Assembly (NCBI RefSeq): GCF_014334135.1
Contig: NZ_CP060497.1
Location: 4,092,001-4,156,000, forward strand
Direction: 5' to 3'
Length of the DNA stretch: 64,000 nt
DNA from: Olivibacter sp. SDN3
GTDB taxonomy: Bacteria; Bacteroidota; Bacteroidia; Sphingobacteriales; Sphingobacteriaceae
Below the pieces are notes generated by a model. The model made no database searches. It was not told the origin of the DNA and was given only the letters and a program-made list of their open reading frames with translations. Positions 7,836 to 20,889 of the stretch are shown here, in pieces. The position numbers and the translations under genes were made by a program. Position 1 is the first letter of the stretch. Each line of letters starts with the position of its first letter.

Positions 7836-8029
7836 AATTATCTATTTAGTAAAAATATAGCTTTACCTACCGTATGAACGTAAAATTTTATACGATTACT
7901 CGTGGTTTATTATGTTATAGCGTTACATTGAAACTTCTGAACCAATCTTCCTAATTGTCGAGATCTAAATGTTCGTTCAGAACTCTAAAAAATAACGACA
8001 ACTAACTTTCATTAATGCTTTTAAATTTG

Positions 8030-8393
8030 TGGAGTCGGAGGGATTCGAACCCTCGTCCAAACATGGTACTGTTTATGCTTTCTACATGCTTAGCTTCCGT
8101 TTAATTGTCGGGAAATAGAAGGTCGGCTGCTTACCTGTACTGTTTTCCGTAGACGTTTTATTTCATTGATTCATCACGTCTCTGAACCAACTAGCTTCGT
8201 TAATCGATGCTCCTGACGCTATATTACGAAGCAGAATACAGCGGAACAAAAGCTATGCTAATTCTAAATTAGGCAGCTAAGGCGTAGTTATTTTCGCCAT
8301 TTAAAAAGTTGAAAGTTCAGATTAAAGTGCTAGACTAACAATGCACTGCATGCTTACATAACCGTCTCCATCCTGTCAATTCCGGTCGACCCC
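8030..8393 (-). ncRNA. ssrA: Transfer-messenger RNA (tmRNA)
   Basis: Releases stalled ribosomes and tags the unfinished protein for degradation. On the minus strand the 5' end GGGGTCG (8393-8387) pairs with CGACTCC at the 3' end, followed by discriminator A at 8030; CCA is not encoded. The T-arm GAGGGTTCGAATCCCTC is present. The tag frame GGC GAA AAT AAC TAC GCC TTA GCT GCC TAA (8298-8269) gives GENNYALAA, with the usual C-terminal ALAA protease signal. About 364 nt, of one-piece type. Confidence 0.96.
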
Positions 8394-13251: not shown

Positions 13252-14358
13252 TTATTTTGATTCGCGACTAACACTTAAATTCCGGAGATAGTGGTCTGTA
13301 ATAACTAAGGCTGCCATTGCCTCGACAATTGCTACGGCCCTTGGGACTACACAGGGATCATGACGACCTTTACCTGCTATTTGGGTTTCTTGACCTTTAA
13401 TATCGACAGTGCTTTGTGCTCTCATAATAGTAGCTACAGGTTTAAAAGCTACGCGGAAATTAATATCCATACCATTAGAAATACCGCCTTGTATACCCCC
13501 TGAAAAATTTGTACGTGTTTTGATGGTTTTATCGTCTTTATCTTCACTTACAAAAATGTCGTTATGTTCAGATCCACGCATTTTTGCCCCTGAAAACCCG
13601 GATCCATATTCAAAGCCGTGTACTGCATTAATGCTTAGCATGGCTTTTCCTAGATCAGCATGCAATCGATCAAATACCGGTTCTCCCAAACCAACAGGTA
13701 TTCCCTTAATGATGGCGCTAACGATTCCGCCTACGGTGTCTCCCTCTTTTCTGATAGACTCAATAAAAGCAATCATCTGGTTTGCGGTGGCAGGGTCTGC
13801 ACAACGTACAATGTTTTTTTCTCTGATAGCTAATAATTGTTCAATAGGAGCTTCTCCTAAATTTGGCGCTTGGATGTTACCTACAGCTGATACATGAGCA
13901 AACAATTCGATGCCAAGTTTTTTTAAATAACTTTTTGCTATAGCACCAGCGGCTACTCGAGCGGCAGTTTCTCTCGCAGATGAGCGCCCCCCCCCTCGAT
14001 AATCCCGAATACCATATTTCACTTGATAGGTATAGTCGGCATGAGAGGGTCTATACTTATCTTGTATATGGGAGTAGTCTTTAGACCGCTGATCTTCATT
14101 TGGAATAAGCATCGCCAGTGGCGTACCAGTTGTTTTTCCCTCGAATACCCCGGAGAGGATTTGCACAGTATCGCTTTCTCTACGTTGTGTGGTTATTTTT
14201 GATTGCCCAGGTTTGCGCTTATCAAGCTCAGATTGAATAAAATCGATGTCAATATCGATATTTGGTGGACATCCGTCAATAATTACACCAATGGCTTTTC
14301 CGTGAGATTCGCCAAAAGTTGTAATCCGGAAAGTTTGTCCAAATGAATTTCCTGCCAT
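13252..14358 (-). CDS. aroC: Chorismate synthase
   Basis: Last step of the shikimate pathway: converts EPSP to chorismate with reduced FMN. 368 residues, normal length. Conserved blocks are the N-terminal [58 protein letters not shown] and RGSEHNDIF. It is last in the four-gene aromatic operon, 48 bp after aroA. A hairpin at 13171-13203 follows. Control should come from the Phe/Tyr attenuator upstream of pheA. Confidence 0.97.
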
Positions 14359-14406: not shown

Positions 14407-15663
14407 TTAAGAATCGACCGTGAAACCAATTTGTTTCAGGTGTTCCCAAAATGCAGGGTATGATTTTCCGACCACTGCCGGGTCATTAACGGTCAATTTA
14501 TCGAATACCATTGCTAAAGGAGCGAAAGCCATGGCCATTCTATGATCTTCATATGTATCAATGACGATATTTTGTGGCGCAATCTTATCATCAGTATTTA
14601 AGTGATAAACATTACCTTCTTCTAAAAGCGTAACTCGAAATTTGGCCAACTCATTTTGTAACGCTTTAATACGGTCTGTTTCTTTAATTTTTAAGGTCTC
14701 AAGACCAGTAAAACTAGCATTATACCCCAAGGCTGCACAACAAACAATCACCGTCTGGGCTAAATCTGGGCATTCCTTAAAATCGAATATGTTTAAACGC
14801 TCATTAGGCGTAGCCGTTTTTTCAATCTTTAACCCGTTTTGATCAAAGGTAGAAACTACGCCGAAGTTGGTCATAATCTCCTGGATCGCACTATCGCCTT
14901 GTAAACTGTTTTTTTTAAGGTGTGGAAGGAATATTGAACTATCAATGGGCGAAAGAGCTATAATAGTATACCAATATGAGGCGGCGCTCCAATCGGGTTC
15001 GATAGTAAGAACTGATTCCATTACCTTTTGTGGTTCAATAGCGATTATGTTTTTATGCCACTTATATTTTATGCCGGTTTCCTCCAACATACTTAAGGTC
15101 ATTTCTACATAGGGCCTTGAAGTCAAGTCGCTAGTAATATGAATGCTTAAGCCATGAGGAAGGAAAGGAGCGATTAATAAAAGAGCTGACAGGTACTGGC
15201 TGCTTACATCCCCCTTAATATTAACCTGCTCTTCCGTTTGGAGAATATTCCCAGATATTTGGAGTGGCGGATAACCTTCTTGTTCTACATATTGAATAGT
15301 CGCGCCTATTGTCCGTAATGCATCGACCAGAACGCCTAAAGGTCGTTGCTTCATCCGATCAGACCCTGTAAGTATAAACTCCCCATCTACAAAGGATAGA
15401 TAGGCTGTCAAGAAACGCATTGCCGTTCCAGCAGGCCCTATATCTATCGTTGTGACTGGATCCTTTTTGTCTTTAGCTACTTTTATTGCCTTGCTTAGGG
15501 TGATGGTGTCGTCCGCATTTGACAAATTGTTAATACGGACTTTACCATTAGTCAATGCGCTTAAAATGAGCGCGCGGTTGCTTTCGCTTTTAGACCCGGT
15601 TAGCTGCACCGTTCCTTTTATTATCCCTCCTGGGTGGGTTAGTTGCAATTTTTCCGTATTCAT
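14407..15663 (-). CDS. aroA: 3-phosphoshikimate 1-carboxyvinyltransferase (EPSP synthase)
   Basis: Joins phosphoenolpyruvate to shikimate-3-phosphate. 418 residues. Visible blocks are GSKSESNRALILSAL near the N-terminus, the PEP-binding GPAGTAMRFLTAYLS and RMKQRPLGVLVDALRTIGA, and ETDRIKALQNELAKF and YEDHRMAMAFAPLA in the second domain. It begins at the base next to the stop codon of the DAHP synthase gene, so the two are surely co-transcribed and probably translationally coupled. Confidence 0.96.
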   Translation of the reverse strand: MNTEKLQLTHPGGIIKGTVQLTGSKSESNRALILSALTNGKVRINNLSNADDTITLSKAIKVAKDKKDPVTTIDIGPAGTAMRFLTAYLSFVDGEFILTGSDRMKQRPLGVLVDALRTIGATIQYVEQEGYPPLQISGNILQTEEQVNIKGDVSSQYLSALLLIAPFLPHGLSIHITSDLTSRPYVEMTLSMLEETGIKYKWHKNIIAIEPQKVMESVLTIEPDWSAASYWYTIIALSPIDSSIFLPHLKKNSLQGDSAIQEIMTNFGVVSTFDQNGLKIEKTATPNERLNIFDFKECPDLAQTVIVCCAALGYNASFTGLETLKIKETDRIKALQNELAKFRVTLLEEGNVYHLNTDDKIAPQNIVIDTYEDHRMAMAFAPLAMVFDKLTVNDPAVVGKSYPAFWEHLKQIGFTVDS

Positions 15664-16770
15664 TTAAGCCTCCACAGCTGGTTTGGCATTCATGATTTGA
15701 TTTTGCTTACGAATTGACTCTCCGTGAATGAGTTCCAACAATTTTACGGTAAAGTCCTTTTCTAAGTTCAAAGCTTTTGCAAAATTGCTTCGTTTTTCAA
15801 TAATCTCCTCCCATCGGTTTACCTGAAGGATAGTTACATTATTATCTCGTTTGTACTCACCGATCTTTTCAACTACTTTCATCCGATCAGCAACCTTTTT
15901 TATTATTTGGTCGTCTAACCCGTCTATTTCTTTACGAAGCTCTGCGAGTTTATCTTCAAATACCGGATTGTTTGATTCTGCCTTTCTCAGTGAAAGGTTG
16001 TTCAATATCTCCGCTAAAGAAGCAGGAGTAACTTGTTGTTTAGCATCGGTCCATGCTACAGAAGGATCAATATGTGATTCAATAATAAAACCTTGCATGT
16101 CCAGATCCACAGCTTTTTGCGCAACGTATGGTATCAGTTCGCGGGTTCCACAGATATGACTGGGATCGTTAATAATAGGGAGTTCAGGAGCAACAGTTTT
16201 TAACTGAATAGCAAGATCCCACATAGGTTCGTTACGAAAAGCAGTCTTTTCATAAGAAGAGAAGCCTCGGTGGATTGCACCTAATTTTTTAATACCTGCC
16301 CTGTTGATTCTTTCTAGTGCTCCTATCCACAGAGATAGATCGGGATTTACAGGGTTTTTCACTAAAACAGGAACATCTACGCCTTTCAGTGCATCGGCTA
16401 TCTCCTGCACAGTAAATGGATTAGCTGTTGATCGTGCACCCACCCACAAAATATCTACGCCTGCTGCCAAAGCTTCTTCTACATGTTTCGCAGTAGCGAC
16501 CTCAGTTGCCGTTGGCAATCCTGTTTCTTCTTTTGCCCGTTTTAGCCATTCCAAACCAATACTTCCAATCCCTTCAAATTCACCTGGACGCGTGCGAGGT
16601 TTCCAAATGCCCGCACGAAGCACCGATACTTTACCTGTAGCGGCTAGCAGATGTGCTGTTGCCACTAATTGTTCTTCGGTCTCCGCACTACATGGTCCGG
16701 AGATTACCAATGGTTCTTTGCCTGTTGCTGACCAAGAGCTTAAAGGCACGATGTCTAAATTTAGTTTCAT
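15664..16770 (-). CDS. Bifunctional DAHP synthase / chorismate mutase
   Basis: 368 residues. The N-terminal domain (about 1-260) is a type I-beta DAHP synthase, with ISGPCSAETEEQL, GIWKPRTRPG, KNPVNPDLSLWIGALERI and NDPSHICGTR; it makes DAHP from PEP and erythrose-4-phosphate. The C-terminal domain (about 270-360) is an AroQ-type chorismate mutase, with LRKEIDGLDDQIIKKVADRM and KIGEYKRDNN, giving prephenate. Combining the first committed step with the branch-point mutase is known in Bacteroidota and gives allosteric control by prephenate. The next gene upstream, pheA, uses that prephenate. Confidence 0.95.
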   Translation of the reverse strand: MKLNLDIVPLSSWSATGKEPLVISGPCSAETEEQLVATAHLLAATGKVSVLRAGIWKPRTRPGEFEGIGSIGLEWLKRAKEETGLPTATEVATAKHVEEALAAGVDILWVGARSTANPFTVQEIADALKGVDVPVLVKNPVNPDLSLWIGALERINRAGIKKLGAIHRGFSSYEKTAFRNEPMWDLAIQLKTVAPELPIINDPSHICGTRELIPYVAQKAVDLDMQGFIIESHIDPSVAWTDAKQQVTPASLAEILNNLSLRKAESNNPVFEDKLAELRKEIDGLDDQIIKKVADRMKVVEKIGEYKRDNNVTILQVNRWEEIIEKRSNFAKALNLEKDFTVKLLELIHGESIRKQNQIMNAKPAVEA

Positions 16771-16812: not shown

Positions 16813-17640
16813 TTAAACTTTATCATTCTTCACGTACTCACCGAGTATATTGAAATTTATAGTATGCTTGAGTGTTTTTCTTATGGCAGCATCATAGTTA
16901 TTCTGTTTCTTCCACTCAATGTCTACATAGAAGTCATATTCATTTTTTTTCCCTAATACGGGCATTGATTGGATTTTACTCATATTTATCTGTTCTTCTG
17001 AGAAGAACGTGAGTACTCTAGCTAGCGAGCCAATGCTGTTGTCTGTTTGAAACAACAGTGTTGCCTTATTGGCTTTTGGATTCTCACTTTTTTCGTTTGA
17101 TAAAATTAGGAAGCGCGTATAATTTTTCTTGTTGGTTTCTATCCTTCTTTCTAAAACTTCCAAATTATACAGTTTTGCAGCTAATGCATTGGCAACTGCA
17201 GCAGTATCGGTTAACTTGTTATCAGCTATTTTTTTCGCGCAGGATGCAGTATCCATTCCCTCAGTTATTTTTAATAACGGATGTTCTTCAAGGTAGTCAG
17301 CACACTGTCGTAAAGCGATGGGGTGAGACTCGACATTTCGTATTTGACTCATTTTTACTCCCGGAAAAGCGAGCAGGTGTAGTTGAATGCTAAGGTAAAC
17401 TTCTCCTATGATCGGAAAATGATAATCATGGAGGAGTGAATAATTTGGCAAAAGACTGCCAGCAATAGAATTTTCTATGGCCATTACTACATAGTCGGCT
17501 TCCTGTTTCTTAAGCGCCTCACAAGTGTGTTTAAATGTTTCACACTCGATTGTTTCTATGTTATGTCCGAAATATTTAAATGCTGCTTCTTCGTGAAAAG
17601 AAGCACGTGTCCCTTGAATAGCTACTTTAATTTTACTCAT
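16813..17640 (-). CDS. pheA: Prephenate dehydratase
   Basis: Converts prephenate to phenylpyruvate. The start is the ATG at 17640 (MSKIKVAIQG, 275 residues); a TTG four codons earlier falls in the attenuator T-run and is unlikely. The catalytic domain covers about 1-180, with IAIENSIAGSLLPNYSLL-type sequence and the NYTRFLIL motif; an ACT domain (about 190-270, TLLFQTDNSIGSLARVLTFF) gives feedback inhibition by phenylalanine. No chorismate mutase domain is fused, since that activity is in the next gene. First structural gene of the operon; no tyrA is present here. Confidence 0.96.
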   Translation of the reverse strand: MSKIKVAIQGTRASFHEEAAFKYFGHNIETIECETFKHTCEALKKQEADYVVMAIENSIAGSLLPNYSLLHDYHFPIIGEVYLSIQLHLLAFPGVKMSQIRNVESHPIALRQCADYLEEHPLLKITEGMDTASCAKKIADNKLTDTAAVANALAAKLYNLEVLERRIETNKKNYTRFLILSNEKSENPKANKATLLFQTDNSIGSLARVLTFFSEEQINMSKIQSMPVLGKKNEYDFYVDIEWKKQNNYDAAIRKTLKHTINFNILGEYVKNDKV

Positions 17641-17650
17641 TTTATTGTTC

Positions 17651-17686
17651 AAAAAAAAAGTCCCGGCTGTTTACCGGGACTTTTTT
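17651..17686 (-). terminator. Attenuator terminator in front of pheA
   Basis: On the minus strand GTCCCGG (17680-17674) pairs with CCGGGAC (17666-17660), extended by AAAAAA/TTTTTT and followed by nine Ts. It ends only about 10 nt before the pheA ATG. The 5' arm can instead pair with GCCGGGATT at the end of the leader frame (17723-17715), which would prevent termination. Confidence 0.9.
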
Positions 17687-17712
17687 ATACATTAATGTTT
17701 TATATATGCATA

Positions 17713-17778
17713 TTAATCCCGGCTTTTACTGCTAAAGTAAAAGTAGCCAAAGAACCAATATGCTGTAGTGTATTTCAT
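17713..17778 (-). CDS. Phe/Tyr-rich leader peptide of the aromatic operon
   Basis: A 21-codon frame starting ATG at 17778 and ending TAA at 17715-17713. The first 15 residues are MKYTTAYWFFGYFYF: four Phe, four Tyr and one Trp, followed by six ordinary residues. An AAGGA sits just before the start and a promoter 19 nt upstream. The Tyr-Phe-Tyr-Phe codons (12-15) are themselves arm 1 of an RNA stem (CTTTTACT, 17743-17736) that pairs with AGTAAAAG (17730-17723). A ribosome stalled there would free the antiterminator. This is the layout of PheL-type attenuation leaders. It is too short for ordinary gene finding. Confidence 0.88.
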   Translation of the reverse strand: MKYTTAYWFFGYFYFSSKSRD

Positions 17779-17796
17779 TATTCCTTTTTGTTTCCG

Positions 17797-17828
17797 CAAA
17801 TATATATAACAATTATTAAGAAACAAGA
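17797..17828 (-). promoter_or_regulatory. Promoter of the leader-pheA-aro operon
   Basis: The minus strand reads TCTTG (17828-17824), 19 nt, TATATTTG (17804-17797). This matches -33 and -7 elements of Bacteroidota promoters at standard spacing and puts the transcript start about 12-14 nt before the leader ATG. Confidence 0.65.
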
Positions 17829-19219: not shown

Positions 19220-19260
19220 TTGTCCTAAAAAACAGTTATTTTTAGGTGCACCCAAACAAT

Positions 19261-20889
19261 ATGGCAAACATACTATTCAAAGCATTACCGTCCAACAGTC
19301 CGAGCCTGTTTCCGGAAGATATTTTTGCAAAGATCCCAGAGAACCACCCGGTACGTCTGGTAAATGCAGTGGTTGACAGACTGAACATCGACCACATCAT
19401 AGGACAGTACAAAGGTGGCGGCACGAGCAGTTTCCATCCGCGTATGATGATCAAAGTGCTGTTCTATGCCTATCTGGGCAACATCTATTCGTGCCGCAGG
19501 ATAGAAAAGGCCTTACAGGAGAATATCTATTTCATGTGGCTTTCGGGCCACAGTGCACCGGATTACCGAACGATCAACCACTTCCGTGGCAAAAGACTTA
19601 AAGGGCATATCCATTCCCTTTTTGCCGATGTTGTCCGTTTGCTTGCCGAACTGGGCTATGTAAGCCTAAAGGTCCAGTACATAGACGGTACAAAGATTGA
19701 ATCGGCGGCAGGCCGTTACACTTTTGTATGGAAAGGTTCGGTGGAAAAGAACAAAGCAAAACTGGAAAATAAAATACAGTCGGTCCTCTCGGACATTGAA
19801 TCACAGATAAAACAGGACCAATCGGAACTGGGCAGGGATGAAACACCCAAACCTATTAAGAGCAATGAGCTCAGGGACAGACTTTCTTTACTGAACGAAA
19901 AGCTCAAAGCAACAGCAAAACCTACCCAAAAACAGCTTAAAAAGCTGCGGGAAGAACATCTTCCAAGGCTGGAAAAGTACGAAAAGCAATTGGCTACACT
20001 GGGGGAAAGGAACAGTTACAGCAAAACCGATGAAGATGCCACCTTCATGCGGCTGAAAGATGACCACATGCAGAACGGGCAGCTCAAACCGGCCTACAAC
20101 ACGCAGATCAGTACGGAAGAACAGTTCATCACCCACTACAGTATCCACCAGACAAGCACCGATACCACCACATTGGAAGACCATCTTGATAGCTTCGAAG
20201 ATCAATATAACAGGCAGAGCGATGTGGTGGTGGCCGATGCCGGTTACGGAAGTGAAGAGAACTATGAAATGCTGGAATCAAAGAACATAGAAGGTTACGT
20301 GAAATATAATTACTTCCACAAAGAGCAGAAACGCAACCAGAGGAACAATCCTTTTCTATTACAGAACCTGTATTATCATAAAGAGCAGGACTTCTATGTG
20401 TGCCCGATGGGACAGAAGATGGAGTTTGCCGGTAAGGGAATACGCAAAAGCACCAATGGATATAGTTCCCGGGTGAGCTATTACAGGGCCGAACGCTGTG
20501 AAGGCTGCCCGCTTCGGGGGCAGTGCCATAAAGCGCAGGGAAACAGGATCATCGAAGTCAACCACCGGTTGAACGAACTGAAGACCAGGGCACGCGAACG
20601 TCTAACATCGGAAACAGGAAAGTACCACCGGAGTAAACGCCCCATAGAAGTGGAGGCGGTCTTCGGACAGATGAAAAGCAACAACAGATTCAACAGGTTA
20701 ACCATGAGGGGGCTTGAAAAGGTCGATATTGAGTTCGCCCTGATGTGTATAGGGCATAACCTGAGAAAATGGTCGAAAAAGCTCCTGAAAACAACTTCGT
20801 CAGGCCCAAACAACGAACCTAAATACAATAATCCCCTTATTTATGACCCCAAATGGATAAACTACTGCTATCAACCATTGGTCGCATAG
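19261..20889 (+). CDS. IS1182-family DDE transposase
   Basis: 542 residues from the ATG at 19261 (a GTG at 19246 would add five). The N-terminal DUF772-type domain (FPEDIFAKIPENHPVRLVN) is followed by a DDE nuclease domain: first Asp in QYIDGTKIES, second in [17 protein letters not shown], Glu in RPIEVEAVFGQMK. A Cys cluster (CEGCPLRGQCHKAQGN) before the Glu is usual for the family. A charged coiled-coil-like stretch (about 190-250) separates the first two catalytic blocks. The gene appears functional and is the probable source of the damaged copy 1. Confidence 0.95.
   Translation: MANILFKALPSNSPSLFPEDIFAKIPENHPVRLVNAVVDRLNIDHIIGQYKGGGTSSFHPRMMIKVLFYAYLGNIYSCRRIEKALQENIYFMWLSGHSAPDYRTINHFRGKRLKGHIHSLFADVVRLLAELGYVSLKVQYIDGTKIESAAGRYTFVWKGSVEKNKAKLENKIQSVLSDIESQIKQDQSELGRDETPKPIKSNELRDRLSLLNEKLKATAKPTQKQLKKLREEHLPRLEKYEKQLATLGERNSYSKTDEDATFMRLKDDHMQNGQLKPAYNTQISTEEQFITHYSIHQTSTDTTTLEDHLDSFEDQYNRQSDVVVADAGYGSEENYEMLESKNIEGYVKYNYFHKEQKRNQRNNPFLLQNLYYHKEQDFYVCPMGQKMEFAGKGIRKSTNGYSSRVSYYRAERCEGCPLRGQCHKAQGNRIIEVNHRLNELKTRARERLTSETGKYHRSKRPIEVEAVFGQMKSNNRFNRLTMRGLEKVDIEFALMCIGHNLRKWSKKLLKTTSSGPNNEPKYNNPLIYDPKWINYCYQPLVA

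Follow-up and report, generated by a model that had tools for sequence, protein, structure and literature searches.

A conserved aromatic leader before the pheA operon of Sphingobacteriaceae, a probable Phe/Tyr transcription attenuator in Bacteroidota

The closest described counterparts of the locus reported here are the pheL leaders of E. coli and Gammaproteobacteria (Rfam Phe_leader, RF01859), in which pheA is preceded by an open reading frame (ORF) rich in codons for the amino acid of the operon, by alternative 1:2, 2:3 and 3:4 RNA arms and by a terminator. In E. coli this leader senses Phe only, and the thr (Thr/Ile) and ilvGMEDA leaders of the same species are multivalent, sensing more than one amino acid. 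Ribosome-mediated attenuation requires that the first ribosome keep up with RNA polymerase. In a 2010 survey, leader peptides were regarded as known only in Proteobacteria and Actinobacteria before that survey's own find in Firmicutes (PMC2965389), and a 2013 survey based on Rfam favored a possible origin of amino acid attenuators in Gammaproteobacteria, followed by very little transfer (PMC3766115).

For Bacteroidota, a 2005 prediction by Merino lists a putative attenuator before the pheA operon of B. thetaiotaomicron (Table 7 of PMC1173090). It shares its phylum and its head gene, pheA, with the locus studied here; the operon there includes tyrA, and the listing, in the portion of the paper available, comes without leader peptide, arms or comparative evidence (PMC1173090). 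RNA-seq of Flavobacterium psychrophilum gave 'strong clues' for leader-peptide attenuation of amino-acid operons and revealed a structured 5' element before pheA in this and other Flavobacteriaceae, a transcribed and structured leader, as that of Olivibacter would be; its amino-acid specificity and mechanism come without a test in the accessible sections of that report (PMC9723704). The Bacteroid-trp motif (Rfam RF01692), which takes its name from trp, is a further candidate cis-regulatory RNA in Bacteroidetes (PMC2864571). A first-pass annotation of the Olivibacter DNA knew of no experimental description in this phylum. Its statement stands as regards functional tests of such a leader, none of which was found in the literature searched (subscription papers fell mostly outside it, and earlier descriptions may exist), and has to be tempered in view of the hints in PMC1173090 and PMC9723704, as far as the portions available go.

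Here we analyze a 64-kb window, meaning the whole stretch of DNA under study, from an Olivibacter-type Sphingobacteriaceae genome that consists of a single 6.1-Mb contig. We conclude that the region before pheA very probably functions as a transcription attenuator of the trpL/pheL type, mediated by the ribosome and responsive to the charging of both Phe- and Tyr-tRNA, and that expression of the operon is probably confined to a shortage of Phe or Tyr at the ribosome. The mechanism would be a classical one, conserved here across a whole family of a phylum from which there is hardly any description of this type. In contrast to E. coli pheL, Phe and Tyr codons are mixed, the operon is a different one (DAHPS/CM, aroA, aroC) and the promoter is of another type. 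With the E. coli thr and ilvGMEDA leaders the locus would share multivalence, and it differs from them in the amino acids sensed and in the operon.

On the minus strand, a Bacteroidota-type promoter, a 21-codon ORF, an intrinsic terminator and pheA follow one another in this order (Table 1). The promoter box of Bacteroidota has been placed at -12 to -5 (PMC9723704), and the sigma-ABfr consensus has TTTG near -33, as quoted in PMC7366714. From the -7 box, transcription is predicted to start at about 17792, and a TAnnTTTG box lies at most 60 nt 5' of the leader ATG in 88 of 103 relatives, against 4% of shuffled sequence. The promoter, the leader with its four Phe, four Tyr and one Trp, the arms and the terminator had all been described in the first-pass annotation, together with an 8-bp 1:2 and a 9-bp 2:3 pairing, and every one of them was found in the sequence as described. 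Another gene of the aromatic pathway, tyrA, is located elsewhere in the Olivibacter genome, beside an aminotransferase (G000, 1.816 Mb). An FFF-containing ORF lies 114 nt upstream of this aminotransferase-tyrA cluster; no terminator was seen there, and we treated this ORF as a chance occurrence.

Table 1. Coordinates, within the window, of the pheA leader, its RNA arms and the operon genes
Feature	Position	Strand	Remarks
Candidate -33 element TTG	17826-17824	-	19 nt 5' of the -7 box
-7 promoter box TATATTTG	17804-17797	-	Perfect match to the Bacteroidota consensus TAnnTTTG
Leader peptide ORF MKYTTAYWFFGYFYFSSKSRD	17778-17713	-	ATG at 17778; 21 codons; stop TAA ending at 17713 (included)
Arm 1 tip CTTTTACT	17743-17736	-	Pairs with AGTAAAAG, 17730-17723 (8-bp stem)
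Full arm 1 GCAUAUUGGUUC...CUUUUACU	17736..17763	-	Overlaps codons 6-15; from fold and pair counts
Full 3' side of the 1:2 hairpin AGUAAAAGCCGGGAUUAAUAUGC	17708..17730	-	Includes arm 2; from fold
Arm 2 core GCCGGGATT / GCCGGGAUU	17723-17715	-	5' arm of the antiterminator (9 bp with arm 3); bears the last leader codons
Arm 3 AGTCCCGGT / AGUCCCGGU	17681-17673	-	3' arm of the antiterminator and 5' arm of the terminator
Intrinsic terminator hairpin 3:4 and U run	17686-17651	-	9-T run
pheA, prephenate dehydratase	16813..17640	-	ATG at 17640; TTG at 17652 is an alternative call
DAHP synthase (DAHPS) fused to chorismate mutase (CM)	15664..16770	-	
aroA, EPSP synthase	14407..15663	-	
aroC, chorismate synthase	13252..14358	-	Gene order kept in relatives

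The aromatic residues are concentrated in the first 15 positions of the peptide, MKYTTAYWFFGYFYF, nine of which are Phe, Tyr or Trp. Aromatic codons make up 46% of the coding frame of the leader DNA, against 10% and 13% of the other two frames. Two rules for aromatic leaders, one strict and one looser, were applied to upstream regions: among pheA loci of the family, 99 of 103 pass the strict rule and all 103 the looser one, while the strict rule is satisfied by 0.2% (four of 2060) of upstream regions resampled with a Markov model and, among 43 other genes in the window, before one, figures to be read with the caveat that Phe and Tyr codons are AT-rich and that chance aromatic ORFs are thus inflated in AT-rich leaders. 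The RNA itself is predicted to fold at -43.4 kcal/mol, against -20.2 ± 3.1 in dinucleotide shuffles (z = -7.5), and none of 200 shuffles was as stable. The pheA leader is thus confirmed as real and far above chance.

Arm 3 is common to the 2:3 and 3:4 stems, so that the antiterminator excludes the terminator. How the antiterminator is itself excluded had been ascribed in the first-pass annotation to the 8-bp 1:2 stem, and this part of an otherwise supported attenuation scheme did not hold up. The 8-bp stem and 2:3 overlap at base 17723 only, and they form together in the structure predicted for a transcript truncated at arm 3; because it is compatible with 2:3, the short stem alone cannot block the antiterminator. 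The blocking role would fall to a longer 1:2 hairpin (17763-17708), predicted at -22.5 kcal/mol in the full-length fold, which buries arm 2 entirely; the antiterminator is predicted at -17.3 kcal/mol. Across the 103 relatives, the minimum-energy fold of the full leader pairs the arm 2 core to arm 1 in 88. When the transcript is cut at arm 3 in the absence of a ribosome, the predicted minimum contains 2:3 in 91 of the 103, and the state of the untranslated RNA is therefore uncertain. Folding of the Olivibacter RNA ahead of a ribosome predicts 2:3 for stalls at codons 5 to 15; at codon 16 this stem is weakened, and with the ribosome at codon 17 or later it is absent. The 3:4 stem is favored at equilibrium in the predicted folds of every ribosome state.

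The promoter, the leader ORF, the stems 1:2, 2:3 and 3:4 and their conservation are established by sequence and comparison, and suggest the following course of events. With RNA polymerase starting near 17792, roughly 14 nt of RNA would precede the leader, on which a ribosome would load. Were Phe or Tyr tRNA uncharged, this ribosome would stall on codons 7 to 15, open the long 1:2 hairpin and cover arm 1, its leading edge extending no further than roughly the first base of arm 2; arm 2 could then pair with arm 3 while arm 4 has yet to be transcribed, giving readthrough into pheA-DAHPS/CM-aroA-aroC. With both tRNAs charged, the ribosome would reach the stop codon, which lies on or beside arm 2 in every relative, and by covering arm 2 would let the 3:4 terminator form. 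If the leader is not being translated, the most stable fold would be the one with the long 1:2 hairpin and 3:4, favoring termination. Since 3:4 wins at equilibrium in all states, the switch would have to be kinetic and co-transcriptional, and a choice taken before arm 4 is transcribed would make the pheA leader resemble the classical attenuators. The antiterminator would be excluded by the longer 1:2 hairpin and, probably to a greater extent, by the ribosome that covers arm 2 as it terminates translation. The component parts of an attenuator are all present at the locus: a short ORF with several end-product codons after a promoter, an intrinsic terminator between this leader and the first structural gene, an antiterminator (2:3) that excludes the terminator, a 1:2 hairpin over the control codons that excludes the antiterminator (in its long form, not in the 8-bp version), and a geometry in which a stall would free arm 2 and a ribosome at the stop codon would cover it.

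Conservation was assessed on pheA upstream regions sampled from 103 Sphingobacteriaceae genomes belonging to at least 20 genera. The first-pass annotation had expected aromatic leaders and covarying arms in such an alignment, and both were found: an aromatic-rich leader is present at all 103 loci, and the 1:2, 2:3 and 3:4 stems covary. The usual pattern is ..N(A/T)Y(W/Y/F)FGYFYF.., with the start 127 to 209 nt 5' of the pheA match. In 101 of 103 leaders, 11 to 15 nt separate arm 2 from the last aromatic codon, counted from the first base of this codon. Relative to arm 2, the stop codon is placed at -6/-5 nt in 18 leaders, at +7 in 73 and at +16 to +24 in 12 (n = 103). A ribosome covers roughly 12 nt ahead of its A-site codon. 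With these distances, a ribosome on the aromatic codon would leave arm 2 free, or nearly so, and one at the stop codon would cover it, in all variants.

A conserved short ORF might also encode a small functional peptide, with the hairpin merely ending a small transcript. The center of the peptide is indeed well conserved in sequence among relatives, as such a function would have it, and yet Phe and Tyr interchange freely. At the C-terminal end, moreover, several genera use a different frame (YYYQ* instead of SSKSRD*) over an RNA, CAGUAAGAGCCGGGAC, that is essentially unchanged; since the frame changes while the RNA stays, it is the RNA and not the peptide that is conserved at the tail. Together with the covariation and the genomic distribution given below, this makes a functional peptide extremely improbable as the explanation of the locus.

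The proposed attenuator could also read a single amino acid. In this version Phe alone would be sensed, the Tyr (and Trp) codons being passengers, as in the E. coli pheA leader; that the operon leads to Phe and that tyrA lies elsewhere, so that Tyr is not an end product of the operon alone, would agree with it. The codons themselves argue for both amino acids. The last aromatic codon before arm 2 encodes Phe in 74 leaders, Tyr in 28 and Trp in one, and the two codons preceding it are Tyr in 90 and Phe in 13, and Phe in 65 and Tyr in 38, each of these positions being aromatic in 103 of 103. Leaders contain on average 4.0 Tyr and 3.7 Phe; a Trp codon was found in only 45 of the 103. Because Phe and Tyr interchange at stall codons that stay aromatic, sensing of both, as originally suggested for this leader, is supported. 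Sensing of Tyr also fits the shared steps encoded in the Sphingobacteriaceae operon, which in Olivibacter feeds both branches, and, in relatives, the presence of tyrA itself: a similar leader precedes the pheA>aspC>tyrA>DAHPS operon of Cyclobacteriaceae. We therefore consider a Phe-only leader unlikely.

Covariation was examined with a tree-aware co-change test over 8001 column pairs, which, as its tree was derived from the same leader alignment, provides a ranking and not a calibrated probability. Pairs of the structure rank 2, 4, 8, 9, 10, 14, 23 and 43 among the 8001, so that terminator (3:4), antiterminator (2:3) and apical 1:2 pairs are among the best covariation signals of the alignment. 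In the terminator, 95% of cells are paired and two-sided changes occur at six of 11 pairs, above all 500 shuffles. For 1:2 the figures are 87% paired and 30 two-sided cells against 15 expected, again above all 500 shuffles; in its clearest pair, 42-50, the wobble base of a Tyr codon (UAC/UAU) lies opposite the G/A of GUAAG/AUAAG on the 3' side of the hairpin, and the tree places CG>UA changes there on four independent occasions. The antiterminator has 86% of cells paired and a weaker, positive covariation, modest when taken alone: its covariation score was reached by nine of 500 shuffles and its number of two-sided-change cells by 57 of 500. Arms 2, 3 and 4 have changed in concert at L176 (CCAGGAC/GUCCUGG/CCAGGAC), as they largely have at L188. 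Arm 2 thus covaries with arms 3 and 4, both of which lie outside the ORF, a further point against a function of the peptide as such.

At the base of the long 1:2 hairpin, GCAUAU/AUAUGC (17763-17758 with 17713-17708) is paired in 75 to 95% of relatives, with an A-C opposition in 23 of 103. Covariation of this segment, considered as a candidate, received no support from the tree test; it is conserved, and we regard it as part of the predicted structure. In the DNA, the Ala/Thr-Tyr codons are nearly fixed as RCATAT (17763-17758), opposite a conserved ATATGY (17713-17708). RCATAT is conserved beyond coding need, TAT being strongly preferred to TAC for its Tyr in 90 leaders against 12.

Terminators and antiterminators are common to several regulatory systems, and the same architecture would be expected if a metabolite riboswitch, a T-box or a protein-bound attenuator controlled the terminator and the ORF were incidental. 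Rfam searches at the gathering cut-off and at E values up to 10 returned only weak, below-cut-off matches, mostly over the terminator. Membership in Thr_leader, Trp_leader and Phe_leader was rejected, all three scoring below the Rfam cut-off (22.4 bits against a cut-off of 55 for Phe_leader RF01859); Bacteroid-trp RF01692 was not matched at its gathering cut-off, and no T-box or metabolite riboswitch family reached its gathering score in the leader region. With no Rfam family at threshold, the main conserved sequence outside the arms consists of in-frame aromatic codons, the distance between stall codons and arm 2 varies by no more than a few nucleotides, and the alignment is without a separate aptamer-like conserved domain. 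Control by a bound metabolite, tRNA or protein is thus highly improbable, and a ribosome-mediated attenuator remains the preferred reading.

Specificity for pheA was addressed with a covariance model built from 34 diverse leaders. Among 61 genomes of the family, its best match lies directly 5' of pheA in all 54 that bear this gene, with E below 1e-6 in 53 and of 9.9e-5 in G050; the seven genomes in which a protein search found no PheA gave no match better than 1e-4. In a sample of 148 genomes of the phylum, six matches outside the family lie directly 5' of pheA; for five of these loci the sequences were examined and hold aromatic leaders, and the sixth (G038) was assigned from its position relative to pheA. 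Matches in family f20, probably Flavobacteriaceae, correspond to aromatic leaders before pheA. Weaker matches in G070, G049 and G078 resemble ordinary terminators near other genes and were rejected. Strong matches are found only before pheA, apart from thrA leaders (G017 and G053 at E values of 3e-6 and 5e-6, and G075 at 9.5e-5, versions from genus g14), and none in genomes in which pheA was not found, a distribution that again speaks against a free-standing functional peptide.

A second set comprised 79 usable pheA loci from named GTDB contigs. The leader is present at 40 of 42 loci where pheA heads an aromatic operon, against three of 37 where pheA stands alone (Fisher p = 3e-16), an association partly confounded with phylogeny, as the lone-pheA loci are mostly from Prolixibacteraceae. 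Operon content varies, being pheA>DAHPS-CM>aroA>aroC in Sphingobacteriaceae and, in Cyclobacteriaceae, the tyrA-containing order given above. Simple rules detected aromatic leaders at only four of 40 pheA loci from other Bacteroidota families; the leader is therefore not universal in the phylum, with the reservation that the rule may miss some. Two loci are exceptions to the operon rule: L053, from a Bacteroidota MAG, and L078, from Prolixibacteraceae, have a lone pheA with aromatic leaders, MKTTKTNASFFFFWFSS and MNAAYRFWFFFFTD, and strong terminators.

The strongest specificity control comes from sister leaders, which were found by targeted searches and simple scans before trpE, hisG and thrA. 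It is strong because each leader holds the amino acid of its own operon, and because Trp and His codons are not AT-rich. In the Olivibacter genome (G000:C1), a Trp leader, MTVETKDIRNWWWHAKRSAGSIY, lies 165 nt before trpE (L234 before 892; L236 before 1501) and is followed by a terminator (CCCGACG...CGTCGGGTTTTTTT); it has no Rfam match at cut-off, Bacteroid-trp RF01692 included, and adjacent Trp codons precede trpE at 14 of 18 relatives' loci. A His leader, MIKVFTHHIHFHHRPCGDM, is found 177 nt before hisG (L231 before 1351), where a clear U-run terminator was not seen, and 16 of 18 relatives' loci have His-rich leaders before hisG. Finally, a Thr/Ile leader, MKTNTIITTSIITTTGTPCHRGK, with a terminator precedes thrA, which encodes an aspartokinase-homoserine dehydrogenase (L289); it is of the same kind as the E. 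coli thr leader, and Thr/Ile-rich leaders precede thrA at 11 of 14 relatives' loci; such leaders were recorded at L271, L272 and L273. In the region upstream of ilvD, no Ile/Val/Leu leader was seen.

Taken with the pheA leader, these loci make it fairly likely that Bacteroidota hold a whole, little-recognized set of ribosome-mediated attenuators (Phe/Tyr at pheA, Trp at trpE, His at hisG and Thr/Ile at thrA), unmatched by the Rfam leader families at their cut-offs. Should this be true, early coupling of transcription and translation would operate in a phylum that makes little use of Shine-Dalgarno sequences, and attenuators would not be essentially a gammaproteobacterial invention, contrary to the view in PMC3766115; Rfam-based surveys, on which that view is founded, would be missing a large group. 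The pheA member of the set would be a two-amino-acid sensor with interchangeable Phe and Tyr codons, which raises a question of design, namely how one leader combines two amino acids when its operon serves both. With the conserved pheA leader and its sisters, a small reporter would suffice to test coupling in Bacteroidota directly, and engineering of the phylum may gain sensors for Phe/Tyr, Trp, His and Thr.

Two further features of the window were recorded. A gene for an IS1182-family transposase lies near the aromatic operon, at 19246-20889, and a tmRNA gene occupies 8027-8393 (Rfam RF00023, 128 bits).
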